From positions 1 to 61,657 of the forward strand of contig DXAK01000034.1 of NCBI GenBank assembly GCA_019117065.1: 61,657 bases of DNA, written 5' to 3'. Below the pieces are notes generated by a model. That model did no database searches, was not told the DNA's origin, and saw only the letters and a list, made by a program, of their open reading frames with translations. This document shows positions 11,212-43,577 of the stretch, in pieces. Made by a program: the position numbers and the translations under genes. The stretch's first letter is position 1. Each line of letters starts with the position of its first letter. The stretch is from Candidatus Mediterraneibacter pullicola (GTDB lineage Bacteria > Bacillota > Clostridia > Lachnospirales > Lachnospiraceae).

Positions 11212-13122
11212 ATGTCAGAGAAACAGAAATATTACATTACAACCGCTATAGCCTACACATCAGGCAAGCCGCATATCGGAAACACCTATGAGATCGTGCT
11301 GGCGGACGCGATCGCGCGCTACAAGAGAAGTCAGGGGTATGATGTGTTCTTCCAGACAGGAACGGATGAACACGGACAGAAGATTGAGCTTAAAGCGCAG
11401 GAAACAGGCATCACGCCCAAAGAGTTCGTAGACAATGTATCCACAGAGATCAAGAGGATCTGGGATCTGATGGATACATCTTACGACAAGTTCATCCGCA
11501 CTACGGATGAGGATCATGAGAGACAGGTGCAGAAGATCTTCAAAAAACTGTATGAGCAAGGAGATATTTACAAGGGATACTATGAGGGAATGTACTGTAC
11601 GCCGTGCGAGTCTTTCTTCACAGAGTCTCAGCTTGTGGACGGGAAATGTCCGGACTGCGGGCGCGAAGTGCAGCCAGCGAAGGAGGAGGCATATTTCTTT
11701 AAAATGAGCAAGTATGCGGACCGGCTGATCGAGCATATCAATACCCATCCCGAGTTTATTCAGCCGGTATCCAGAAAGAATGAGATGATGAACAACTTCC
11801 TCCTTCCGGGGCTTCAAGACTTGTGTGTGTCCAGAACCTCATTTAAATGGGGAATCCCTGTGGATTTTGATCCGAAGCACGTGATTTATGTGTGGCTGGA
11901 TGCGCTGACAAACTATATCACAGGGATTGGTTATGACGCGGATGGTGACAGCACGGGGCAGTTTGAGAAACTTTGGCCTGCTGACCTTCATCTGATCGGA
12001 AAGGATATTATCCGCTTCCATACGATTTACTGGCCCATTTTCCTGATGGCGTTGGGGCTGCCCCTTCCCAAGCAGGTGTTCGGGCATCCGTGGCTCCTTC
12101 AGGGAGACGGCAAGATGAGCAAGTCTAAGGGAAATGTGCTCTATGCGGACGAGCTGGTTGATTTCTTCGGGGTGGATGCGGTACGTTATTTCGTGCTCCA
12201 CGAGATGCCTTTTGAAAATGACGGCGTCATCACTTGGGAACTGATGGTGGAGCGTCTGAATTCTGACCTTGCGAATACCCTTGGGAATCTGGTGAACCGT
12301 ACAGTTTCTATGACGAATAAATATTTCGGCGGAACGGTGGCGGACAAAGGAACGCGGGAAGAAGTCGATGCTGACTTGGAAGCAGTTATAGAGAGCACGC
12401 CAAAGGCAGTGGATGAGAAGATGGATACATTGAGAGTTGCCGACGCGATCACAGAGATCTTTAATCTCTTCAAGCGCTGCAACAAGTACATTGATGAGAC
12501 AATGCCGTGGGCGCTGGCAAAGGATGAGGCGAAGAAAGACCGTCTCGAAACTGTGCTTTGGAATCTTATTCAGGGGATTTCTACAGGCGCAAAGCTTCTG
12601 GAATCCTTTATGCCGTCCGCCAGCAGGAAGATATTAGAGCAGCTTGGAGGCGGACATGTAACGGAGAAGCCGGAGATCCTGTTCCAGAGACTGGATCTTG
12701 AGGAAGTGATGAAAAAGGTGGAAGAGCTCCATCCTCCGATGGCTGATGCGGAAGCTCCATCTTCTGACGAGGCTGTGATTGATATAGAACCGAAGGATGA
12801 GATCACCTTTGAGCAGTTTGGGACAATGCAGTTTCAGGTGGGAGAGATCATTGCCTGCGAGGAAGTGAAAAAGTCTAAAAAGCTTCTCTGCTCCCAAGTG
12901 AAGATCGGAAGTCAGGTAAAGCAGATCGTCTCGGGGATTAAGGCTCATTATACCCCCGAAGAAATGGTCGGAAAGAAAGTTATGGTTCTTGTGAACTTAA
13001 AGCCGGCAAAACTGGCAGGAGTTCTCTCAGAAGGCATGCTGCTCTGTGCAGAGGATTCAGAAGGGAATCTATCGCTTATGGTGCCGGAAAAAGAGATGCC
13101 GGCAGGCGCGGAAATCTGTTAA
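11212..13122 (+). CDS. metG: Methionyl-tRNA synthetase with C-terminal tRNA-binding domain
   Basis: 636 aa. It charges tRNA-Met with methionine in the cytoplasm. The class I signatures are PHIGNTYE near the N-terminus and GKMSKSKGNV near residue 300. A zinc knuckle with two CxxC pairs (CTPC and CPDC) lies at about 130-150. The anticodon-binding helical domain follows. Residues about 535-636 form the EMAPII/Trbp111-like OB-fold that dimerises the enzyme and binds tRNA. Start ATG with AAGGGAGGGGC before it. Expression is controlled by the T-box leader upstream. The C-terminal domain is related to the orphan domain at 40178-40645 that belongs to the split lysS. Confidence 0.97.
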   Translation: MSEKQKYYITTAIAYTSGKPHIGNTYEIVLADAIARYKRSQGYDVFFQTGTDEHGQKIELKAQETGITPKEFVDNVSTEIKRIWDLMDTSYDKFIRTTDEDHERQVQKIFKKLYEQGDIYKGYYEGMYCTPCESFFTESQLVDGKCPDCGREVQPAKEEAYFFKMSKYADRLIEHINTHPEFIQPVSRKNEMMNNFLLPGLQDLCVSRTSFKWGIPVDFDPKHVIYVWLDALTNYITGIGYDADGDSTGQFEKLWPADLHLIGKDIIRFHTIYWPIFLMALGLPLPKQVFGHPWLLQGDGKMSKSKGNVLYADELVDFFGVDAVRYFVLHEMPFENDGVITWELMVERLNSDLANTLGNLVNRTVSMTNKYFGGTVADKGTREEVDADLEAVIESTPKAVDEKMDTLRVADAITEIFNLFKRCNKYIDETMPWALAKDEAKKDRLETVLWNLIQGISTGAKLLESFMPSASRKILEQLGGGHVTEKPEILFQRLDLEEVMKKVEELHPPMADAEAPSSDEAVIDIEPKDEITFEQFGTMQFQVGEIIACEEVKKSKKLLCSQVKIGSQVKQIVSGIKAHYTPEEMVGKKVMVLVNLKPAKLAGVLSEGMLLCAEDSEGNLSLMVPEKEMPAGAEIC

Positions 13123-32234: not shown

Positions 32235-33725
32235 GTGGCACAGGAGCAGAAAAACGTACAGGAACCGGATCTGAATCAGTTGAGAAAGGTGCGCCGTGAG
32301 AAACTCTCAGAGCTTCAGGAAAGCGGCAGAGATCCGTTTGTCATCACAAAATACGAGCAGACACACCACAGTCAGGAGATCAAGGATCACTTCGACGAGC
32401 TGGAAGGGAAAAAAGTATCCATAGCGGGACGCATGATGTCTAAGCGAGTGATGGGAAAGGCTTCCTTCTGCAATGTTCAGGATCTGAAAGGGAATATTCA
32501 ATCCTATGTGGCAAGAGACAGCGTAGGCGAGGAGAACTATAAAGAATTTAAGAAACTGGATGTGGGCGATGTGGTCGGAATCGAGGGCGAAGTGTTCCGC
32601 ACAAAGACAGGGGAGATGTCCATTCATGCGTCGCACGTGGAACTGCTCTCTAAGAGCCTTCAGATTCTTCCAGAGAAATTCCACGGCCTGACGAACACAG
32701 ATATCCGTTACCGTCAGAGATATGTGGATCTGATTATGAACCCGGAGGTGAAGGACACCTTCATCAAACGCTCGAAGATTTTGAGCGCGATCCGCAGATA
32801 TCTGGACGGGAAAGGTTTCATGGAAGTGGAGACACCCATGCTGGTGAGCAATGCAGGCGGCGCTGCGGCGAGACCGTTTGAGACGCATTTTAATGCCTTA
32901 GATGAGGACTTTAAACTCCGTATTTCTTTAGAGCTGTACTTAAAGAGGCTGATTGTAGGCGGTATGGAAAGAGTGTATGAGATCGGACGCGTGTTCCGAA
33001 ACGAAGGGCTTGACACAAGGCACAATCCGGAATTTACACTCATGGAGCTGTATCAGGCATACACGGATTATAACGGGATGATGGATCTGACGGAAAACCT
33101 GTACCGCCATGTGGCGCAGGAAGTACTCGGCACGACGAAGATCACCTACAATGGCGTGGAGATGGATCTCGGGAAGCCGTTCGAGCGTATCACCATGGTG
33201 GATGCAGTGAAGAAATACGCGGGTGTAGACTGGAATGAAGTGGAAACACTGGAGCAGGCGAGAGAACTTGCGAAAAAATACAATGTAGAGTTTGAGGAGC
33301 GCCACAAAAAGGGCGACATCCTCTCCCTCTTCTTTGAGGAGTACGCAGAGGAGCACCTGATCCAGCCCACATTTGTAACAGATCACCCGATTGAGATCTC
33401 TCCGCTCACAAAGAAAAAGCCGGAGAACCCGGATTATGTGGAGCGTTTTGAGTTTTTCATGAACGGCTGGGAGATGGCGAACGCATACTCTGAGCTCAAT
33501 GACCCCATTGACCAGAGAGCCAGATTCAAGGCTCAGGAAGAGCTTCTAGCGCAGGGCGACGAGGAAGCGAACACCACAGACGAGGACTTCCTAAATGCTC
33601 TTGAGATCGGTATGCCCCCGACGGGCGGTATCGGATTTGGTATCGACAGAATGTGCATGCTTATGACTGACAGTGCGGCGATCAGGGACGTACTCCTGTT
33701 CCCGACAATGAAGAGCAAGGAATAA
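32235..33725 (+). CDS. lysS: Lysyl-tRNA synthetase catalytic core, cut short by an integrated element
   Basis: 496 aa from GTG 32235 (AAGGAGGAAG before it). The N-terminal OB anticodon domain and the class II core are complete: '[20 protein letters not shown]', '[20 protein letters not shown]' and the final '[16 protein letters not shown]'. It charges tRNA-Lys. The 3' end is altered: the 19-bp repeat at 33699-33717 is the left end of an integrated element, and the last two codons (AAG GAA) and stop TAA come from the element. Without it, the frame would run on from 'LFPTMKS' into 'IGGKSS...' at 40178-40645 and make a 646-aa enzyme with a C-terminal tRNA-binding domain. The core alone matches the ~495-aa LysRS of other bacteria, so it is probably active. 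Confidence 0.95.
33699..33717. repeat. Left attachment repeat in lysS
   Basis: TTCCCGACAATGAAGAGCA, identical to 40169-40187. It encodes the FPTMKS part of lysS, at the border between the catalytic core and the appended domain. Confidence 0.92.
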
Positions 33726-33785
33726 AAAACAGCGTAAAATCAAAGGATTTTAAAGGTTTAAGCTCCTAAAAATGTATAAATAGCC

Positions 33786-33814
33786 TTGAAAGTGTAGTAA
33801 ATTCGTAGTATGCT
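33786..33814 (+). promoter_or_regulatory. Promoter of the integrase
   Basis: TTGAAA (33786-33791), a 17-bp spacer and TATGCT (33809-33814). GTAGTA-containing repeats around it (33794, 33806, 33832) may be integrase arm sites. Confidence 0.6.
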
Positions 33815-33865
33815 AATACTAGAAGATGTAGTAAAAGGCGATTTATACAGAAAGGAGCTTTTTTT

Positions 33866-35074
33866 ATGGCTGGACAAAAACGGACGAAAACACAGTATAA
33901 ATGTATATATTTCAACGAAGACACAAAAAAGTATGATGTTAAGTATAATTTTAGAGTATATGATCCGCTGACAAAGAAAAACAAGTCAAAATCAAAATGG
34001 ATATATAATCAGCGGACTATCGGCGAAGCAAAGAAAGCACTGGCAGACATGCAAACTGGAAAGGTTAAAGCTGATTCTAAAGAAATAACGCTGGCGGGAG
34101 CATTTGATCTTTGGAAGATAAAGGCACAAGGGCAGAATTACAGTCCTGTGACAATTAACAATACGGAACAGCAAATGCGGATGATCTATCAGTTTTTGCC
34201 AGAAGATACGAAAATAAAAGACATAACGGAAGATGTATATTACAAATTTGCATCAGACTGTAGAGAGCATGGGTATAGTGATGAGTCTCTGCACAGTATC
34301 AATGCCACATTTAGAAAACTAATCAATCTTGTCTATAAGAAAAAACTTATTTCTGAAAATATACTGCATACAGCGGACAATATTAAAACAAAGCAAAAAG
34401 AGGACTATCGGGTAATCAGCAAAGAGGAATTTGATAAGATTGACGAATACTTTGGAACAAATGAGTTCTGGCGGCTGGGTGTCAATAATTACCCTAAGTA
34501 CAGGCTGCTGTTTAATGTTCTGTATTATACAGGATTGAGGATCGGTGAAGCAATCGCCCTGACTTATAATGATTTTGAACATTTTAATTATTATAAGCAG
34601 GGAGAAGAGCCTATGCAGCTTTATATTCCCTCGTCAGAAAGGGCAAAAGAAGATCATTTGCGGGGAATGAGGATCAGAGTGACAAAAGCCTATGTATCTG
34701 ATCTGAAATTAACAAAAGATCCGAAAAATTTTAAAAAGAGAACGATTCCTCTTTATTCAAGTGTTGAAAGACTTTTTATTTATATCAGGAACAGACATCA
34801 AAGACAGGGGGGCAGTCTTGATGACAGGATTTTTGACTGGGGACATAGTGCATGTGCCGTAATGTTGAAAAAAGCCTGTGATAGTTTGGAACTGCCCAGG
34901 TACACATGTCATGAGTTCAGGCATACATTTATCAGCAATCTTATAAAAAGCGGTGTTCCTCTGCCTGTTATTGAAAAGGTATCGGGCGATACACAGGCAA
35001 CGATCCTGAAAAGATATAGTCATATGTTTGAGAGTGATGAGGTTATGGTTCTGAAAGCTCTCGATAATCTATAA
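33866..35074 (+). CDS. Tyrosine integrase of the element
   Basis: 402 aa, with the three-part layout of phage and Tn916-type integrases: an N-terminal arm-binding region (about 1-65), a core-binding SAM-like domain (about 75-175) and a catalytic domain. Catalytic residues are Arg225 (TGLRIGEA), His349 and Arg352 (HEFRHTF) and Tyr384 (LKRYSHMF). The second His-box usually reads GHTQ; here it is GDTQ, so Asp375 replaces His. It should insert the element at the lysS repeat. It lies 140 bp inside the left end and has its own promoter and the site AGAAAGGAGC. Confidence 0.93.
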   Translation: MAGQKRTKTQYKCIYFNEDTKKYDVKYNFRVYDPLTKKNKSKSKWIYNQRTIGEAKKALADMQTGKVKADSKEITLAGAFDLWKIKAQGQNYSPVTINNTEQQMRMIYQFLPEDTKIKDITEDVYYKFASDCREHGYSDESLHSINATFRKLINLVYKKKLISENILHTADNIKTKQKEDYRVISKEEFDKIDEYFGTNEFWRLGVNNYPKYRLLFNVLYYTGLRIGEAIALTYNDFEHFNYYKQGEEPMQLYIPSSERAKEDHLRGMRIRVTKAYVSDLKLTKDPKNFKKRTIPLYSSVERLFIYIRNRHQRQGGSLDDRIFDWGHSACAVMLKKACDSLELPRYTCHEFRHTFISNLIKSGVPLPVIEKVSGDTQATILKRYSHMFESDEVMVLKALDNL

Positions 35075-35076
35075 GT

Positions 35077-35105
35077 AAAAACTCGGCCGGAGAGGCCGAG
35101 TTTTT
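35077..35105 (+). terminator. Intrinsic terminator after the integrase
   Basis: AAAAACTCGGCC (35077-35088) pairs with GGCCGAGTTTTT (35094-35105) with a five-base loop. Confidence 0.9.
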
Positions 35106-35181
35106 ACATTTGTTTCGTAATACTTCCCCTTTTGAGTTATAAATAAAAATACTGCTGTCTAGTATGTATCACAATAAAGAA

Positions 35182-35340
35182 AGACTTCAATATAGAAGCC
35201 GTGGCAAGCCGATTGAAGTCTGGAGAAATATTTATAATACAGTATATGTTCTTCGCAAAAATGTATTCAAATAATAGGTATTATCTCCAGACTTTAAGGC
35301 AGTGTAGTTGGCATACAGTGTCTTTTTTTATTGAATACAT
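35182..35340. other. Candidate rolling-circle replication origin
   Basis: The 256-bp gap before rep contains three inverted repeats: AGACTTCAAT (35182-35191) with ATTGAAGTCT (35212-35221); GTCTGGAGA (35218-35226) with TCTCCAGAC (35284-35292); and ATGTATTCAA (35261-35270) with TTGAATACAT (35331-35340). They overlap, so the strand can adopt alternative folds. HUH-type Rep proteins nick in such hairpins next to their own gene. No specific nick site can be named. Confidence 0.55.
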
Positions 35341-35361
35341 CTACAAAAGGAGACAATACAA

Positions 35362-36537
35362 ATGAAATTGAAAAAATGCGAAATCATGCAACAGTGTAAA
35401 TATCTAACAGAGGAACAGATACAACAGGCAATAAAGGGCAGGAAATGTATCAAACAATGGGCGTATATCTGCCATGACAAGGACCTTGATGACAACGGAG
35501 AGCCCAAAGCTCCACACTGGCATATTATGCTTCAGTTTAACGACACACAGGACAGTAAGTATATCGCGAAATGGTTTGGTATAGAGGAACAGTATGTAAA
35601 CCGTAGCAGCAGTAAACGTTTTGAGCCAATGCTGGCATATCTTATACATGCCAACGCCACAGACAAATATCAGTATGACGCAGCTCTGGTAAAAGCAAAC
35701 TTTGACTATATAGCGTTTATACAACAGGATGCAAAAAATATCAGAAGAAGCGAAATACTGGACTTGATTGATAAAGGCATTATTACTGAGTTTAATTACA
35801 CTGAACATCTTAACATCAGCGAATATACAAAATACAGAAAACTTATAGAGGATGCTTTCAGATATAAAAGAGAATCTCGGTTTACAGGAAGCAGAGAGTT
35901 AGAAGTTATCTATATCTCTGGTGATTCGGGATGTGGTAAAACCAGCTATGCAAAATGGCTTTCCAAGAAAAAAGGGTATTCCTTTTTTATAACTGGCAGT
36001 GGTGAAGATATTTTAGACGGGTATAGAGGTCAGGAGTGCATTATCCTTGACGATATACGCAGTAGTACACTAAAATTCAGTGATTTTATCAAGATGCTGG
36101 ATAACAATACGGATTCGCCTGTCAAAAGCCGATTCCATAATAAAATGCTGACAGGCTGTCAACTGCTTATTATTACTACAATATATGACATGGATAATTT
36201 CTATAAACTCTTTGAAGAAAATGACGAACCTCTTATACAATTTCAAAGACGTTGCAAAATTAAACTTGATATGGATGAGAACACGATACAGGCATATCAA
36301 TTTGACAGGGAGAACAAGAAATTTGAGTATATGGCCTGTTATGACAATCCTGTCAAAGACTTAATACATAAAAGTATTGAAGAACAGCGAACGGTCAAGG
36401 AGTTAGACGATTTCCTTGGAATGGAATCCATGCCAGAGAATACGGATACTGCTGACATAGACACAACGGACAGTGAGATAACGCTTGACACTGAAGACAC
36501 TGAAAATTATAGCGGGTTTCCTGAAGGACTGGACTAG
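35362..36537 (+). CDS. rep: CRESS-like replication protein: HUH endonuclease plus superfamily 3 helicase
   Basis: 391 aa. The N-terminal Rep domain has 'AYICHDKDLDDNGEPKAPHW' leading into the HUH motif at His52-Trp-His54, followed by hydrophobic residues, and the probable nicking Tyr93 in 'MLAYLIHAN'. After about residue 180 comes a superfamily 3 helicase: Walker A 'GDSGCGKTS' (187-195) and Walker B 'CIILDD' (226-231). The acidic tail is probably disordered. This pairing is the plan of CRESS-DNA virus Rep proteins and of related bacterial plasmids. The protein should nick one strand at the origin, stay covalently bound and unwind for rolling-circle replication. Start follows AAAAGGAGACAA. Confidence 0.88.
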   Translation: MKLKKCEIMQQCKYLTEEQIQQAIKGRKCIKQWAYICHDKDLDDNGEPKAPHWHIMLQFNDTQDSKYIAKWFGIEEQYVNRSSSKRFEPMLAYLIHANATDKYQYDAALVKANFDYIAFIQQDAKNIRRSEILDLIDKGIITEFNYTEHLNISEYTKYRKLIEDAFRYKRESRFTGSRELEVIYISGDSGCGKTSYAKWLSKKKGYSFFITGSGEDILDGYRGQECIILDDIRSSTLKFSDFIKMLDNNTDSPVKSRFHNKMLTGCQLLIITTIYDMDNFYKLFEENDEPLIQFQRRCKIKLDMDENTIQAYQFDRENKKFEYMACYDNPVKDLIHKSIEEQRTVKELDDFLGMESMPENTDTADIDTTDSEITLDTEDTENYSGFPEGLD

Positions 36538-36625
36538 AAACTAAGACAGCCATACAGTACGAAAAAGGTGGAAACGTGGTATTGACTTTCATTGACAGGC
36601 AAAAAACCCTGTAAATCCAACACAT

Positions 36626-36660
36626 GGAGAGGGGGAGACGGGCTTGTCCTCCCCCTCTCC
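36626..36660. other. Strong hairpin 1 after rep
   Basis: Perfect 12-bp stem GGAGAGGGGGAG (36626-36637) with CTCCCCCTCTCC (36649-36660), 11-base loop. No T run follows. Together with the next hairpin it could be a single-strand origin for lagging-strand synthesis. Confidence 0.6.
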
Positions 36661-36663
36661 AAA

Positions 36664-36700
36664 CGTGGAAAACGTGGAAGTTTCTTCCATGTTTTCCATG
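36664..36700. other. Strong hairpin 2 after rep
   Basis: A 16-bp stem with two G-T pairs, CGTGGAAAACGTGGAA (36664-36679) with TTCCATGTTTTCCATG (36685-36700), and a five-base loop. It starts four bases after hairpin 1. Confidence 0.6.
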
Positions 36701-36802
36701 TCGGAACAGGTTGGAATCCTGCCAGAAATAAGAATGTACGTTCTGTGCTCCCTTTTTTGCCAAAGTGCGCTAGAATGAGGGCAAAGAAAGGGGGTGGGAT
36801 TC

Positions 36803-37102
36803 GTGCAAAAACTGCCGTGGGAAGAAATGCTTGTCATGTGGCTGTCCGAGTTCAGGGAGAATAACATGACAGAATATCGGAAAACCTCACAAGAGTATAA
36901 CGAAAAGGTAAGAAAAGAAGAGGAACTTCACAAAAAAGTACAACAACTGAAACTCACCAGCGAGGAACGGCAACTGATTGATGAACTTCTGTCTGCACAG
37001 TCGGCAACGGAAGAAGCATACTCGTCAGCCAGCTATCTGTTTGGGATAGCCGACTGCATGAGATTTATCTCATTTTTTCAGTCGTTGTACAGGACAGGCT
37101 AA
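36803..37102 (+). CDS. Small helical protein, DUF6809-like
   Basis: 99 aa from GTG 36803, which has AAAGGGGG at 36788-36794 before it. The sequence is one long helical run: 'EYRKTSQEYNEKVRKEEELH', then 'LTSEERQLIDELLSAQSATE', then a hydrophobic end 'FGIADCMRFISFF'. This pattern resembles DUF6809 proteins that are common on Firmicute plasmids and conjugative elements. Function is unknown. It is followed by a small hairpin and a terminator. Confidence 0.6.
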   Translation: MQKLPWEEMLVMWLSEFRENNMTEYRKTSQEYNEKVRKEEELHKKVQQLKLTSEERQLIDELLSAQSATEEAYSSASYLFGIADCMRFISFFQSLYRTG

Positions 37103-37157
37103 AAGCCTGCACGGATGTTTTCATCTGGCTTGTTAGAGATATAACTGAAAACATAGG

Positions 37158-37202
37158 AAAAGTCAATGGTGCGAAGCACAACGCTTGCCATTGACTTTTT
37201 TT
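37158..37202 (+). terminator. Intrinsic terminator after the DUF6809-like gene
   Basis: AAAGTCAATGG (37159-37169) pairs with CCATTGACTTT (37188-37198), followed by more T residues; AAGC and GCTT pair in the loop. Confidence 0.8.
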
Positions 37203-37605
37203 ATGTTGAAGTATCCTTTTGAAAGCCAGAATGAAAAAAGAGCCTCGGTTAAAAGGCTCTGGACTATGACTGGAGTAAGGAACAAAAAATTTATAGTCAT
37301 TACATTATATTCATATCAATCAGATTCTATAATATGGTGTATTCATTTTTTATGTGTTTATCACAGACAGCGGCATCAGGGTGGTTTTATTCTGGTGTCC
37401 GAGGTTGTGTATAGCCGTATGCAGCCGCTAAGAATAAGGTATTGTTTACATTGGTGAATCTGTTGATTCAAAGAGAGAGCAGGGAAAGGAGAAAGGAAAC
37501 AGGGATAAGGAACAAGAAAAGGAACAACAGAATAGTCTTCACAACAGGGGTTCAATGCTTTGCGATTTAAGCAGAAAAGCCAGTTGTGCGGTAAACGAAG
37601 CGGAG

Positions 37606-37761
37606 CATACACGTTCCTCCCGGAACGTGTATGTGAAGCGGAGTTGTCGTGAAGTGAAAACACTTCATAATCTCCCGCAGGGGAGATTCGGACACTTGAC
37701 AGATTGCGCTGCATGTCCGCATGGTGGAAGCCCATGCACTTAAGCCACATTGTTGTGGCTT
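37606..37761. other. Cluster of six stem-loops in 156 bases
   Basis: This part of the gene-free stretch 37203-37885 packs six hairpins in a row: CATACACGTTCC/GGAACGTGTATG (37606-37633), GAAGTG/CACTTC (37651-37666), AATCTCCC/GGGAGATT (37669-37688), GGACA/TGTCC (37690-37718), GCATGG/CCATGC (37719-37737) and AAGCCACA/TGTGGCTT (37742-37761). GAAGCGGAG is repeated at 37597 and 37635. It may be a non-coding RNA, a transfer origin or a secondary replication origin. The rest of the stretch holds only one smaller hairpin (GAGCC/GGCTC near 37235-37258). Confidence 0.5.
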
Positions 37762-37807
37762 CGTATTAGCCTGAAAGATTTTTATTTTTGACCATTTTTA
37801 TATAGAA

Positions 37808-37856
37808 ATGCTGGCATAAACATGTTGACCTGCGGGAAACATGTCTATGCCAGCAT
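37808..37856. repeat. 49-bp lox-like inverted repeat before the second recombinase
   Basis: ATGCTGGCATA (37808-37818) and ACATGTT (37820-37826) are mirrored by AACATGT (37838-37844) and TATGCCAGCAT (37846-37856), with one mismatch pair and an 11-base centre. Arms and centre have the size of a tyrosine recombinase core site. It ends 29 bp before the recombinase start. Confidence 0.6.
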
Positions 37857-37885
37857 GACCGATACGCGAAAGAGGGTGAATCAGA

Positions 37886-38842
37886 ATGAGCGTAAGCCTG
37901 AAAAATCAAGTCTTACATGCAATAAGCCACAACAAAAATATGGGGGCGGACAAACACGCCGCAAAAGGAAAAGGACAAGCCTATGGTGGTAATAAGACAG
38001 GAAAAATATACAGCTACAGTACTTTAAATGCCCGCAAGGACGTGGCAAAGAATTTTTGCAACTATGTAAAGGAACACTATCCAGAGGTAAAGAAAGCCAG
38101 TCAGTTAAAGGCAGAGCACGCCCAAAGCTGGCTGAACTACTGCGCCACACAGGGAAACTGTAGTACCGACACACTGAAAAGCTATAAAAGCCAGTTAAAC
38201 GGGATTGAGAAAAATATTAACAGCACATTCCACGCCAGCGTCAATCTGTCAGAAGCAGAAACACCACAGGGGCAAACAAAGGCTGTCCGCTGCTCTCCGA
38301 TGCGTGCCGATCATCTTCAGGCGCTCAAATCCAGCTACAGACCGTTCAGCACAGGGGCAAATGCCCTGACACTGGCAGAAGCCTGTGGTGCGAGAAATGA
38401 AGAAATCTGCCATATCCAGAACAGGGATATTCATATCAATACAGACGGAACGGCTACCGTTCATATAGAAGACGGCAAAGGCGGCAGGAACAGGGATGTC
38501 CGTGTCCAGAACAGCGAACACGTCCAAAACCTGAAACAGTTGAAAGAGCATCTCGGCGCAAATCCGTATCAGAGACCATGCCCTGTACAAAAGGGAAGTC
38601 TGCTCAATAACCTTGAACGTCACATGAAAAGTACATACACAGAAACAGGCGTCAGCATCAAAAGTTATTATAAAAATCAAGAGTTTCACAGCATACGGAA
38701 GATGTTCGCTCAGGCTCAGTACGACTATTGCCGAACGAACGGCATGAGTAAGCCAGACAGTTTCAAGTATGTGACGGAGCAGTTAGGGCATAACAGGACT
38801 GATTCCGATCTGATGAACAGATATATAGCAAATCAGTGGTGA
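37886..38842 (+). CDS. Second tyrosine recombinase of the element
   Basis: 318 aa. It keeps the catalytic set in divergent form: Arg170 (GARNEE), Lys198 (DGKGGR), His268 and Arg271 (FHSIRKMF), His302 (LGHNRTD) and Tyr313 (NRYIAN). The N-terminus has a basic, glycine-rich start and a helical core-binding domain. It is unlike the 402-aa integrase at the left end and belongs to a group found on clostridial plasmids. The inverted repeat immediately upstream is a natural candidate for its target, so it may resolve plasmid multimers or invert DNA. Start ATG follows AAAGAGGGTG. A bidirectional terminator follows. Confidence 0.82.
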   Translation: MSVSLKNQVLHAISHNKNMGADKHAAKGKGQAYGGNKTGKIYSYSTLNARKDVAKNFCNYVKEHYPEVKKASQLKAEHAQSWLNYCATQGNCSTDTLKSYKSQLNGIEKNINSTFHASVNLSEAETPQGQTKAVRCSPMRADHLQALKSSYRPFSTGANALTLAEACGARNEEICHIQNRDIHINTDGTATVHIEDGKGGRNRDVRVQNSEHVQNLKQLKEHLGANPYQRPCPVQKGSLLNNLERHMKSTYTETGVSIKSYYKNQEFHSIRKMFAQAQYDYCRTNGMSKPDSFKYVTEQLGHNRTDSDLMNRYIANQW

Positions 38843-38845
38843 TAC

Positions 38846-38878
38846 AAAAACGGAGCGTTTCAAACACGCTCCGTTTTT
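38846..38878. terminator. Bidirectional terminator
   Basis: AAAAACGGAGCGT (38846-38858) and ACGCTCCGTTTTT (38866-38878) pair perfectly around a seven-base loop, between convergent genes. Confidence 0.9.
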
Positions 38879-38883
38879 GATAA

Positions 38884-39144
38884 CTATTCCTCTTTCTTCT
38901 TCAGATTGGGAATGTCGCTTGCCTTTGTTGACGGTTCAGAAGTATCCTGCCCTATATTCCTGAGAGCGTCAGCGGCTTTGCTGAACTGCCTGTTTTTGAT
39001 GTTCTCTCCTGTCCGTGTATGTGTCCCCAGCGCAATATCAGCGGCGGCTTTCGCCAGTCCGAGGGATGCGTGTGCATAAGCCTTACCCAATCCAGAAGCG
39101 ACCTTACCCGCCTTTTTCAGACGATTTTTGTTTTCCTCTTTCAT
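38884..39144 (-). CDS. Small basic protein of unknown function
   Basis: 86 aa from the ATG at 39142-39144, which has AAAGGAAAG on the minus strand; an earlier in-frame ATG at 39183 overlaps the upstream gene and lacks a site. The protein is helical, lysine-rich at both ends, with an alanine-rich centre ('YAHASLGLAKAAADIALG'). No domain is recognised. It is probably co-transcribed with the membrane protein gene just upstream, and belongs to the element. Confidence 0.6.
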   Translation of the reverse strand: MKEENKNRLKKAGKVASGLGKAYAHASLGLAKAAADIALGTHTRTGENIKNRQFSKAADALRNIGQDTSEPSTKASDIPNLKKKEE

Positions 39145-39169
39145 ATCAATTTTTCTTTCCTTTAAAACT

Positions 39170-39760
39170 TTATAACATTTCATCCCTGATTGCGTTAAGC
39201 TGATTCTGCATAGACTGTGCCTGTGCGGCTAAATCAGCCATAGCATGTTGCTGTTGAAGATTTCCCGAATAGATTAAAAACTGCTGTATCGCCTCGTTCA
39301 AGTCCTTTGCCGCCCCTGTCCGTATTACGTCCAGAAAATAGGAAACAGCAAAGGTACTTTGATACTGGTCGGGAATAAAATCAATCAAATCGCCGTCCTC
39401 TTTCAGACGTTTCTGGAAGCGTTCTTCATACTGAGTATACTTGTCTGCAAAGGCCTGCATTTCTTTCTGGTGCTTTTTACAGATCATGTTTGTGATAAAT
39501 GAGATTACTGCGATAATAGCGGCAAGCATAACCATATACTGGATAAAATCTGCAAGTCCTGCCCCCTGCATAATAACACTGATACAGAGCAGAACGCCTA
39601 TAACAATCGCAATATTACGGATTCTTCGGGGCTTTCGCTGCCTGTTTTGATGCTCATAAAATCCATTTTCACACTGTCCGCAGACTGCACTGATGTTCTC
39701 CAGTTCCTCAAGAAACGGATATGCGGTGGTCAGCCGTTGTATAAGTTCTTCCCTCTCCAT
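39170..39760 (-). CDS. Two-helix membrane protein of unknown function
   Basis: 196 aa. The first ~45 residues are soluble, with a CGQC pair ('SAVCGQCENGFYEH') that could bind metal. Two adjacent transmembrane helices follow ('IAIVIGVLLCISVIMQGAGL' and 'YMVMLAAIIAVISFITNMI'), then a charged helical region and a Gln-rich end. Function is unknown; similar small proteins occur on clostridial plasmids. The start ATG at 39758-39760 has GGAGAAG before it. It is divergent from the Cro-like regulator across a repeat-bearing operator region, which suggests that regulator controls it. Confidence 0.65.
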   Translation of the reverse strand: MEREELIQRLTTAYPFLEELENISAVCGQCENGFYEHQNRQRKPRRIRNIAIVIGVLLCISVIMQGAGLADFIQYMVMLAAIIAVISFITNMICKKHQKEMQAFADKYTQYEERFQKRLKEDGDLIDFIPDQYQSTFAVSYFLDVIRTGAAKDLNEAIQQFLIYSGNLQQQHAMADLAAQAQSMQNQLNAIRDEML

Positions 39761-39791
39761 GCTCTTCTCCTTTTCGCTTGTATAGTATTAG

Positions 39792-39834
39792 CCAGATATG
39801 GCTAATATGATTATAACCCAGATACGGCTAATAT
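39792..39834. promoter_or_regulatory. Two direct repeats, probable operator of the Cro-like regulator
   Basis: CCAGATATGGCTAATAT (39792-39808) and CCAGATACGGCTAATAT (39818-39834), 26 bp apart start to start. The first is also part of the palindrome TTAGCC-N6-GGCTAA. They lie between the divergent membrane protein and regulator genes. Confidence 0.7.
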
Positions 39835-39853
39835 TCAAGTAGAGGTATTTATA

Positions 39854-40063
39854 ATGATTACTTATACGCCCTTATGGGAAACAATGAAAGTAAAAGGAAT
39901 TAGCCAGTATAAACTGATAAAGGATTTCAATGTGAGCGCAGGGCAGTTAAGCCGACTTCGAGCAAATGCGTATGTGAATACGCACACTATAGAAATGCTC
40001 TGTGAAATACTAGACTGTGATGTACAGGATATTATGCGCTATGAAAAAATCCCGAATCGGTAG
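39854..40063 (+). CDS. Cro/C1-type helix-turn-helix regulator
   Basis: 69 aa, nearly all one DNA-binding domain: 'WETMKVKGISQYKLIKDFNV' and 'SAGQLSRLRANAYVNTHTIE' give the helix-turn-helix, with 'MLCEILDCDVQDIMRY' as the closing helices. This is the YozG-like type of single-domain XRE protein. The paired repeats upstream are its likely operator. It is the last gene before the right end of the element and may control the divergent operon or the lysogenic state. Confidence 0.85.
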   Translation: MITYTPLWETMKVKGISQYKLIKDFNVSAGQLSRLRANAYVNTHTIEMLCEILDCDVQDIMRYEKIPNR

Positions 40064-40163
40064 AACAGAACGTAGAAAAATGAGAAAATAAAAGTATAAA
40101 AAAGTATAAAACTTGTATTTGATATTAAAAAAATCCAATAAAATCAACAAAAAATTGAACTGT

Positions 40164-40169
40164 TATAAT
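40164..40169 (+). promoter_or_regulatory. TATAAT box at the right end of the element
   Basis: TATAAT at 40164-40169 touches the right repeat. A start near 40176 would give a nearly leaderless mRNA for the orphan lysS domain, whose ATG is at 40178. There is no good -35 (best AAATCA at 17 bp), so function is uncertain. Confidence 0.35.
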
Positions 40170-40187
40170 TCCCGACAATGAAGAGCA
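40169..40187. repeat. Right attachment repeat
   Basis: TTCCCGACAATGAAGAGCA, identical to 33699-33717. Its ATG becomes the first codon of the orphan lysS domain. Confidence 0.92.
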
Positions 40188-40645
40188 TTGGCGGAAAGAG
40201 CTCTGCGAAAGAAACAGGAAAGGCGGTTTCAGAGGCGGTAAAGACAGAGGAAAAACCGGATGAAAAAATTGATTTTTCCAATGTGAAAATTGAGCCGCTC
40301 TTTGAAGAAATGGTTGACTTTGACACTTTCAGCAAGTCAGATTTCCGTGCTGTGAAGATTTTGGCTTGTGAGGCAGTACCGAAGTCCAAGAAGCTTCTTA
40401 AGTTTACATTAGATGACGGTGAACGCAAAGACCGTGTAATTTTAAGCGGTATTCACGAGTATTACGAGCCGGAAGAACTGGTTGGAAAGACTTGTATTGC
40501 AATTGTAAATCTGCCGCCGAGAAAGATGATGGGAATAGACTCCGAAGGTATGCTGATTTCAGCAGTACATGAAGAAGATGGTCACGAAGGACTCAATCTT
40601 TTAATGGTTGACAATCACATTCCGGCAGGTGCAAAGCTCTATTAG
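40178..40645 (+). CDS. Orphaned C-terminal tRNA-binding domain of lysyl-tRNA synthetase
   Basis: 155 codons. After a charged linker (about 1-45), residues about 46-155 form an EMAPII/Trbp111-type OB fold: 'FSKSDFRAVKILACEAVPKS', 'KKLLKFTLDDG', 'VILSGIHEYYEPEELVGKT', 'IGIDSEGM'-like 'MGIDSEGMLISAV' and 'NHIPAGAKLY'. The metG C-terminus in this window has the same pattern. The first codons (MKS) lie in the right repeat and continue the lysS frame when the element is removed, so this is the severed end of lysS. There is no ribosome-binding site. It may be silent, or made from a leaderless transcript and act in trans. Confidence 0.88.
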   Translation: MKSIGGKSSAKETGKAVSEAVKTEEKPDEKIDFSNVKIEPLFEEMVDFDTFSKSDFRAVKILACEAVPKSKKLLKFTLDDGERKDRVILSGIHEYYEPEELVGKTCIAIVNLPPRKMMGIDSEGMLISAVHEEDGHEGLNLLMVDNHIPAGAKLY

Positions 40646-41958: not shown

Positions 41959-42334
41959 GCTTATGTAGCACCGTCGCATGGGTAACACCATAGCGGCGGT
42001 TTACTATGTCTGTGGACTGTCTTTGTTAAAGGATTTTTATCCAGTTTTTCAGCGATTAGCTACAAAGGTCTTTCTCATAGCTACAGACTTGTTGGGAAAA
42101 GGGCTTTGAGTAAACAGAACCTTGTGTTTTGTAAAATCTGCATAAAAAATAAAGAGGAAATTGTATAAAACAGAGAAGATGATATTTTATTCCTCAAACA
42201 CGGCACATTATCTGTTTTGCGCGCGGATTCTATTATATATTATGTTCATGGCGATAATCGAAAATATTATTCCATTGGGAGATACCCCTCGTTGGGAAGA
42301 GATATTACCATCAGAAATCGGAGGCGGACATGGT
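41959..42334. other. Intergenic region without a clear gene
   Basis: 376 bp. It holds the weak hairpin at 41968-42000 and otherwise AT-rich sequence. A frame open from 42161 runs into the MFS pseudogene but has no site at its start and does not resemble a protein family. No promoter stands out. Confidence 0.5.
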
Positions 42335-43577
42335 ATGAATAGAAAAAAAGATATTTTACTGAACCAGTGTCTGTATGCGGCAATTCATGCTATGCTATGG
42401 GGCGGGCATGCGGTTATCATTGGATTCTGCAGTAATTTTTTAAAACTTGCGGGATTTCAGGACAGCCATGTCAGTATTGTTCTTGGAATTGCGAGTGGTT
42501 TGTCTATTATTGCTCAGATTGGACTAACGGAATTGGTTGGAAAAATAAAAAAACTTGATCTTGCACTGGTTATGGAAGGTCAGGCTCTGGTGATGGCGGC
42601 AGCAGGAGTTTTGATGACACAGTATGCAAGTAGTCCTGTGATGGCGGCATTTGGGATAGGTTTGGGATGTACTGCGCTTCAGACATTTCTACCTTTTGCA
42701 AATTCGATCGCGACAGCAGCGAATCAGGGCGGTGCCCAGATACATTTTCCAACTGCGCGGGGAATGGGTCGATCGCTTACAGCACCGTTTCACTAGCAAC
42801 AGGATATTTAATTGGAGTGGCAGGAGCTGGTGTAACGGCTGTGCTTACAATCATTATTGGTATTGGCCTTTTTTGGTATCATTTGGATTTCGGGCTGCGC
42901 TAGGCGACAGGATTCGGTGTACAGATGACTCAGATGGGATAAGCACAGAGGATGAAAATAAACAGGAAAAGAGCAGGAAGCAAAATGGCAGTATTATGTC
43001 ATTTTGCCGGGAGCATTTCTTTTTTGCAATATTTCTGGCAGGAAGTATCTTTATGTATGTCAACCATAGTTTAATCTGTTCGTTTATGCAGCAGATTATT
43101 TCAGCAAAGGGTGGAGGAGCCGGAGAGCAGGGGACTGCGGTTGCTATAGCTGGCATTATGGAGCTTCCTGTTATGTTCGGGTTCGGTTATCTGCTGAAAA
43201 AGGCAAAAGGAGACATATGGGTGATCGTTTCAGGAGTATTTTTCCTGATGAAAGCGGTACTGACTCTGATTGCACCTGATTACCACTGGATTTATGCGAC
43301 ACAGGTGTTTCAAATGGGCGGATTTGCCCTCTATACAGTAGCCTCTGTGGAATACGTTTCGAATGTGTTCAAGGGGGAAAATGCCGTGCGTGCGCAGTCT
43401 TATCTGGCTTCAACAATAACGATGGGAAGTCTCATCGCTTCAGCAACAGGAGGAGTGATCTGCCAATATTTGGGAGTAGAAATCATGCTTGTCACAGCGT
43501 CTGTTCTGGCAGCTGTGGGTTGCCTCCTTGTATGCCGCTCAATTAGAATGAATAATAAAAATTTTAGTCAAGCATAA
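42335..43577 (+). pseudogene. Frameshifted MFS transporter
   Basis: Starts at ATG 42335 with GGAGG before it. The first frame ('NRKKDILLNQCLYAAIHAML', 'WGGHAVIIGFCSNFLKLAGF') ends early at 42796. The protein then continues in another frame ('GSIAYSTVSLATGYLIGVAG') up to a stop near 42903, and finally in the third frame ('FFFAIFLAGSIFMYVNHSLI' and 'YLASTITMGSLIASATGGVI') to 43577. Two shifts are therefore needed, near 42767 in a G run and near 42880-42903. In total it would be a ~410-aa, 12-helix transporter of the LacY-like MFS branch. It is probably inactive unless the shifts are sequencing errors. Confidence 0.8.

Follow-up and report, generated by a model that had tools for sequence, protein, structure and literature searches.

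Elements integrated at the core/tail boundary of lysS appear to remove or replace the tRNA-binding tail of lysyl-tRNA synthetase in gut Clostridia

What becomes of an essential enzyme when a mobile element integrates within its gene? The question is raised by a contig of Candidatus Mediterraneibacter pullicola, a member of the Lachnospiraceae (GenBank assembly GCA_019117065.1, contig DXAK01000034.1, positions 1 to 61,657; this whole stretch of 61,657 nt is termed the window), in which lysS, the gene for lysyl-tRNA synthetase (LysRS), is split by an integrated element between the catalytic core and a C-terminal tRNA-binding domain, termed the tail. Comparison with related genomes indicates that the core/tail boundary of lysS is very probably a recurrent integration site, at which elements remove or replace the LysRS tail domain, the window element being one that removes it. 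The parts of the split locus are as follows.

32235..33725, + strand: lysS catalytic core, 496 aa, GTG start, with K and E codons and stop from the element; tRNA-synt_2 PF00152, lysS_bact TIGR00499; aligns to 3a74 over its full length
33699..33717, + strand: left attachment core (attL), 19-bp repeat within lysS, from repeat identity
33718..40168, no strand: integrated element, a unit of 6,470 bp with one repeat copy counted; absent from the lysS of genome G431
40169..40187, + strand: right attachment core (attR), 19-bp repeat, from repeat identity
40178..40645, + strand: LysRS tail left stranded, a C-terminal tRNA-binding domain of 155 codons; PF01588; in the frame of the core once joined

The 19-bp repeat reported in the first-pass annotation of this DNA, TTCCCGACAATGAAGAGCA, was present at 33699–33717 and 40169–40187; the two copies are identical and have a spacing of 6470. 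Its description of the two gene parts was also borne out. The host-encoded end of the core is FPTMKS, followed by the K, E and stop of element DNA that complete the 496-aa product; the 155 codons on the right continue in the same frame, and splicing the flanks at the repeat gave an open frame of 646 codons. The EMAPII-type tRNA-binding domain ascribed to the right part was matched by Pfam tRNA_bind (PF01588; E 2.9e-25, residues 57–153, 88.6 bits against a cut-off of 27). The top NCBIfam model for the stranded tail was metG_C_term, and its phmmer matches were methionyl-tRNA synthetase (MetRS) beta subunits and Trbp111 (1pyb); the LysRS of Entamoeba (4up7) is also tailed. Solved bacterial LysRS structures could be aligned with the window core through to their ends, and Geobacillus 3a74 (493 aa) aligned to core residues 12–495, both ending together. 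Since 3a74 ends where the window core ends, the cut falls just where a canonical LysRS that lacks the tail comes to its end. On this alignment the remaining core is a canonical one-domain LysRS, probably active, in agreement with the earlier view that the essential enzyme is trimmed and not killed.

An uninterrupted counterpart was present in G431, the genome whose core is closest to that of the window (98% aa identity). Its lysS is a joined frame without the window element, and the 26 nt at the site, TTCCCGACAATGAAGAGCATTGGCGG, match the right junction of the window letter for letter. This junction, together with the re-use of the same attachment core at lysS in many genomes, confirms that the element-split lysS at the core/tail boundary is real and not a chance arrangement. 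An uninterrupted lysS of about 646 aa had been predicted for relatives; a core match was obtained in 50 of the 58 genomes of the genus, and 41 of these 50 had an open frame of at least 614 codons (among the 41, G456 has a TAG within the matched stretch, and G414 and G425 run off the contig end). Among the other nine are the window itself, G420 and genes truncated where a contig ends. Relatives that always carry a 496-aa LysRS and a separate domain gene, with no joined frame, were not encountered. The close relative G148 (core 90% aa identity) is tail-less; its gene ends in FPTMKPLDK-stop, and it is absent among the tail matches listed. In G420, of the same genus, the short lysS end is identical to that of the window and the DNA beyond it is 71% alike over 357 nt.

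Use of the site extends well beyond this genus. Among 397 Lachnospiraceae genomes (the family sample; threshold E 1e-100 for the core and E 1e-28 for a LysRS-type tail), a core match was found in 347 and a LysRS-type tail in 144. The tail matches listed included at least 44 tails, in 36 genomes, whose short frames hold no core, and all 44 were fetched and inspected with their upstream sequence. Thirty-eight start precisely at the attachment core, with unrelated DNA in front of it; four have a lost core or a frameshift (L115, L134, L139 and L144) and two are cut by contig ends (L150 and L157). At L134 (G347:C33) the lysS is fused with its tail out of frame after the linker, and a separate displaced tail lies on another contig. 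Where lysS and a separate tail shared a contig among the matches listed, the tail was always downstream on the same strand (15 of 15 genomes), 6 to 169 kb away, and this was likewise so in G178 and, in other families, in G497 and G773. A class sample of 321 genomes yielded tails in 55. Two more families proved to have separate tails, one represented by G497, G773 and G725 and the other by G609. Identical element ends precede different displaced tails in different genera, and one such end, that of G005 and G102, is matched in another family by the end in front of the G609 tail.

A Tn916-like integrase ended no more than 700 nt upstream in 25 of the 35 separate tails that had more than 1.3 kb of upstream sequence. 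PF02920, the DNA-binding domain of the Tn916 integrase, was present in both such integrases put to Pfam (L111 and L128; 2/2), whereas a Pfam scan of the window integrase showed it to be absent. Tn916 itself has low target specificity; the elements at the lysS site use one site.

What the elements do to the enzyme differs between genomes. A core fused in frame to one tail, with a second tail behind an element, was found in G323, G296, G145, G005, G152, G263, G072 and others. G145 carries a tandem array of three elements together with four tails; the first of these elements encodes an elongation-factor-G-like protein of 639 aa (L107:3797–5716), which by eye resembles ribosomal-protection resistance proteins. 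The fused tail of G005 is 99.4% identical to that of G155, and its displaced tail equals the fused tail of G027 over 354 nt, which points to two successive tail swaps in G005. Elements that bring a short end and a stop, as in the window, were found in G262 (169 kb) and G104 (120 kb). The converse sign, a short native end behind an element, as expected of tail gain, was sought by pattern in 33 genomes and gave 48 matches, against nine with the reversed pattern. The sign was seen in two genomes, G003 and G354: each has a short end of native appearance after an element or DNA resembling one, and the tailed lysS is on a different contig. Read across contigs, this looks as if an enzyme without a tail had acquired one. 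The first-pass proposal that the element trims a domain therefore describes the window correctly and is not the full story, as replacement tails or apparent tail gain are found elsewhere.

The histories of core and tail were compared in 44 fused genes. Core and tail identities were correlated with an r of only 0.13, compared with 0.65 between two parts of the core. Tails were at least 90% identical in 18 of 946 pairs, and in all 18 the cores were less than 85% identical. In the pair G038/G271 the tail is 100% identical over 471 nt and the core 73%; the identity profile jumps within the attachment core and then stays at 98–100% for 1.5 kb. Across a family boundary, G391 and G514 have tails of 99.6% and cores of 71.7% identity, and tails at least 94% identical occurred in nine genomes of nine genera and two families. 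Trees of 94 genes gave a corresponding picture. The 24 genes of the window's genus formed one clade in the core tree (SH-aLRT 99.9); in the tail tree the same 24 genes required 14 changes and a single clade was rejected (p-AU 8e-11). Both trees are of a quick kind, carried long-branch warnings and comprise genes other than that of the window. By these measures the tail appears to pass between species separately from the rest of LysRS in gut Clostridia.

The arrangement that would best explain these findings is one in which the core/tail boundary, FPTMK(S/P), acts as the attachment site for several families of tyrosine-integrase elements. The integrase would recognize the conserved sequence, about TTCCCGACAATGAAG, with which the catalytic core ends. 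Bacteria without a tail have this sequence at the 3′ end of lysS; in hosts with a Trbp111/EMAPII-type LysRS tail it lies mid-gene. Upon integration, presumably catalysed by the adjacent integrases, the core would read into the left end of the element, which would provide either a short end and stop (the window, G262 and G104) or a complete tail domain, and the host's own 3′ part would be displaced to the far end of the element. The outcome in the window is a canonical one-domain LysRS and a stranded, probably untranslated tail; excision would be expected to restore the joined gene. Over time LysRS would become a chimera, the core tracking the genus and the tail travelling with elements. Mobile elements usually insert at the ends of essential genes and spare them; in hosts with the longer gene, the same integration would exchange a whole domain. 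Parts of one housekeeping protein can then differ in ancestry, which means that lysS cannot safely serve as a phylogenetic marker for these bacteria. Such exchange would also account for closely related gut bacteria that differ in the presence of a LysRS tail, and would amount to a repeated natural test of the importance of an appended tRNA-binding domain.

Several observations weigh against exchange by elements as a complete account. Ten of the 35 testable separate tails had no nearby Tn916-like integrase; the window is among these, its integrase sitting at the opposite end of the element. Many fused genes with foreign tails have one attachment core only (e.g. G232, G138, G027, G514, G611 and G191). 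Four relatives of the window integrase that are 55–60% identical and have upstream room (L050–L053) do not adjoin lysS. The weak core–tail correlation that persists in the 44 fused genes (Mantel p 0.017) implies that part of the tail history is vertical, and 12 of the 24 genus tails group together, so vertical inheritance of tails also occurs. In eight of the 11 pairs profiled, similarity dropped to the background level inside the tail or shortly beyond it; in these pairs different elements may have carried the same tail, the element may be gone, its end may have diverged, or homologous recombination may have moved the tail. Were recombination of this ordinary kind responsible throughout, the elements would be mere passengers. 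Some pairs do share a tail without its flank, and the linker can differ in identity from the conserved part of the tail, as in G145/G323 (77% over the initial 100 nt and as high as 97% beyond). Displaced tails nevertheless stand behind element ends, with attachment repeats, adjacent integrases and tandem arrays, and identity jumps inside the attachment core; recombination as the sole cause was accordingly weighed and judged improbable. The chance that assembly or binning produced the pattern was put lower still, at a practically negligible level: several genomes are fragmented drafts with core and tail often on different contigs, yet the pattern holds between two genomes of one contig each (G271 and G391; tails 96% and cores 72.5% identical), tails are fused in frame to very different cores, and the arrangement is repeated across genera. 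The first-pass annotation had further proposed a genetic switch, in which a cell alternates between a one-domain and a two-domain LysRS by regulated excision and insertion. Both forms do occur within one genus, the junction keeps the frame such that precise excision would restore the gene, and the element has a helix-turn-helix (HTH) regulator and two recombinase-like genes; but no mixed population or regulation was seen, and across species different elements replace the tail at this site, which is exchange and not toggling. The switch is therefore unsupported, and we regard it as highly improbable.

Exchange of the tail may or may not have consequences for the host. It is possible, and we entertain it tentatively, that this is ordinary 3′-end integration with an incidental domain boundary and a dispensable tail, the whole pattern being neutral. 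Tail-less LysRS is canonical and close relatives such as G148 are tail-less, the same integrase family uses lysS in short-ended hosts (L047 and L048), and elements that bring a stop are tolerated. Many elements, however, hold an intact in-frame tail, and neutral cargo should decay, whereas the tails are strongly constrained (pN/pS about 0.10–0.14): the ratio was 0.10 in a shared group and, in comparisons with the nearest fused tail, separate tails gave 0.10 and fused ones 0.14 (uncorrected values from non-independent pairs). We put about equal, limited trust in a bolder extension of exchange by elements, that the LysRS tail of Clostridia might be a free-circulating module owned by elements, each integration imposing its own version or none and re-setting tRNA-Lys charging. 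If this were true, two parts of a single essential protein, its core and its tail, would be separately inherited, and tail diversity would possibly be selected for the benefit of the element. In PMC11286949 the Trbp111/EMAPII fold is described as binding tRNA at its 3′ end, with fusions able to increase aminoacylation. As for the 38 stranded tails beginning at the attachment core, a Shine–Dalgarno-like match of 4 nt preceded the ATG of that core in two, and a match of 5 nt in none; the check covered that ATG only. Because no 5-nt match was found there, stranded tails are probably silent.

The window element itself encodes the following proteins.

33866..35074, + strand: tyrosine integrase, 402 aa, adjoining attL; PF00589, phrog_1 integrase
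35362..36537, + strand: Rep protein with origin-binding and helicase domains; PF01719 Rep_OBD E 9.9e-14, PF00910 RNA_helicase E 5.2e-12
36794..37102, + strand: small protein of unknown function, 102 aa; phrog_21982
37886..38842, + strand: second tyrosine-recombinase-like protein, 318 aa; phrog_216 integrase E 1.9e-5, PF00589 only below the cut-off
38884..39183, − strand: 99-aa protein of unknown function; open reading frame with no family match
39170..39760, − strand: 196-aa protein, weakly SLATT-like; NF033632 E 0.00098, below the curated cut-off
39854..40063, + strand: Cro/C1-type HTH regulator, 69 aa; PF13443 E 6.3e-15

The seven proteins were scanned against Pfam, NCBIfam and PHROG families, and no relaxase or type IV secretion family, as expected of an integrative and conjugative element, was found among them. 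PF01719 and PF00910 occur together in one Rep (35362–36537), as expected of a CRESS-type integrative plasmid; we take the Rep to be of CRESS type, and its domains presumably to be HUH-type and superfamily-3-like. This Rep could have a role in mobilization. As the element supplies only K, E and a stop, it does not restore a full-length target, unlike the tail-carrying elements of G323, G296 and G145.

Fifteen relatives of the window integrase were found in named genome contigs, and seven of them (L041, L042 and L045–L049) lay directly behind a lysS core. An eighth, L040, shares the attachment sequence and is preceded by different DNA, and L043, L044 and L054 are at contig ends. The host of L047 is Blautia-like and tail-less; its displaced short end, FPTMRQLD-stop (L047:15646), runs directly into sequence resembling another element's left end, which suggests two elements in a row. 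In the family sample, relatives occurred in four of the 397 genomes including the window's own; the other three, 51–56% identical, were not beside lysS within the fetched pieces, and the idea of one integrase family behind all split lysS genes was dropped. No relative was confirmed in viral contigs. L050, a 60% identical relative that is not beside lysS, comes from a metagenome bin labelled Melainabacteria.

Integration in lysS is already known from other bacteria. Integrative and conjugative elements (ICEs) of Streptococcus are reported to integrate at the lysS 3′ end (PMC4701971). Like the window element, they have a tyrosine integrase, lysS as target and short direct repeats (13 or 17 bp in their case), a likeness of description and not of compared integrases; unlike it, they come with no C-terminal domain or exchange in the accessible text of that paper. 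In Enterococcus, vanD islands or an ICE lie in lysS with the 13-bp repeat TTCCC[GAC]AC[AG]ATGA, 17 bp from the lysS 3′ end, and a ‘Clostridiales’ origin of the islands has been proposed by the authors (PMC8301612, PMC10765050). Both window copies, at 33699 and 40169, begin TTCCCGACAATGA, which fits this motif; the vanD islands share the attachment core of the window on the strength of the repeat motif, not of element sequence. They differ from the window element in their size of 112–143 kb and in carrying vanD, and no tail domain is mentioned in the accessible parts of these reports (PMC8301612, PMC10765050). The window also has a tyrosine integrase adjoining its attachment site (33866–35074), as do these lysS-specific elements, but the Streptococcus and vanD elements sit at the 3′ end of the gene whereas the window site has 155 gene codons beyond it. 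Fusions of the Trbp111/EMAPII OB-fold to synthetases, which like the LysRS tail fall under PF01588, are treated in the available text of PMC11286949 as fixed enzyme parts and not as a mobile module.

Prophage e14 and phage 21, which integrate in icd of Escherichia coli, bring a replacement C-terminal part of the enzyme. They replace a short, near-identical end; the lysS elements replace a whole diverged domain, which is often removed altogether. In the papers searched, subscription papers and preprints not among them, no report of LysRS domain exchange or loss via elements was found. Domain exchange by site-specific elements at this known site appears to be new, and is well supported by the sequence comparisons.

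Tails were also sought in mobile-element collections. In viral contigs the tail was found in one contig, which carries an ordinary fused lysS. Tail matches were obtained in 30 phage-collection and 271 plasmid-collection records, at under 60% identity in 25 of the 30 and 268 of the 271; among the rows shown, the annotated low-identity matches were MetRS. Three unverified gut virome records had LysRS-type tails. One of them, the ‘bacteriophage’ record MT839044.1 (L197; 2586–4521), has a 411-aa integrase weakly like that of the window, an attachment core and a LysRS tail, the tail lying directly behind the Tn916-like integrase and attachment core, and appears to be the right end of such an element. 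The gut virome record MT838375.1 (L198; 2881–3336) has a LysRS-type tail on an unrelated N-terminus (151 aa) and no attachment core.

Elsewhere in the window, a second tRNA-binding domain of the same kind (12766–13116), 43% identical to the stranded tail, closes a 653-codon frame that is probably a MetRS. Downstream of lysS, two overlapping frames of 211 and 293 aa (42161–43577) look by eye like one frameshifted membrane transporter.

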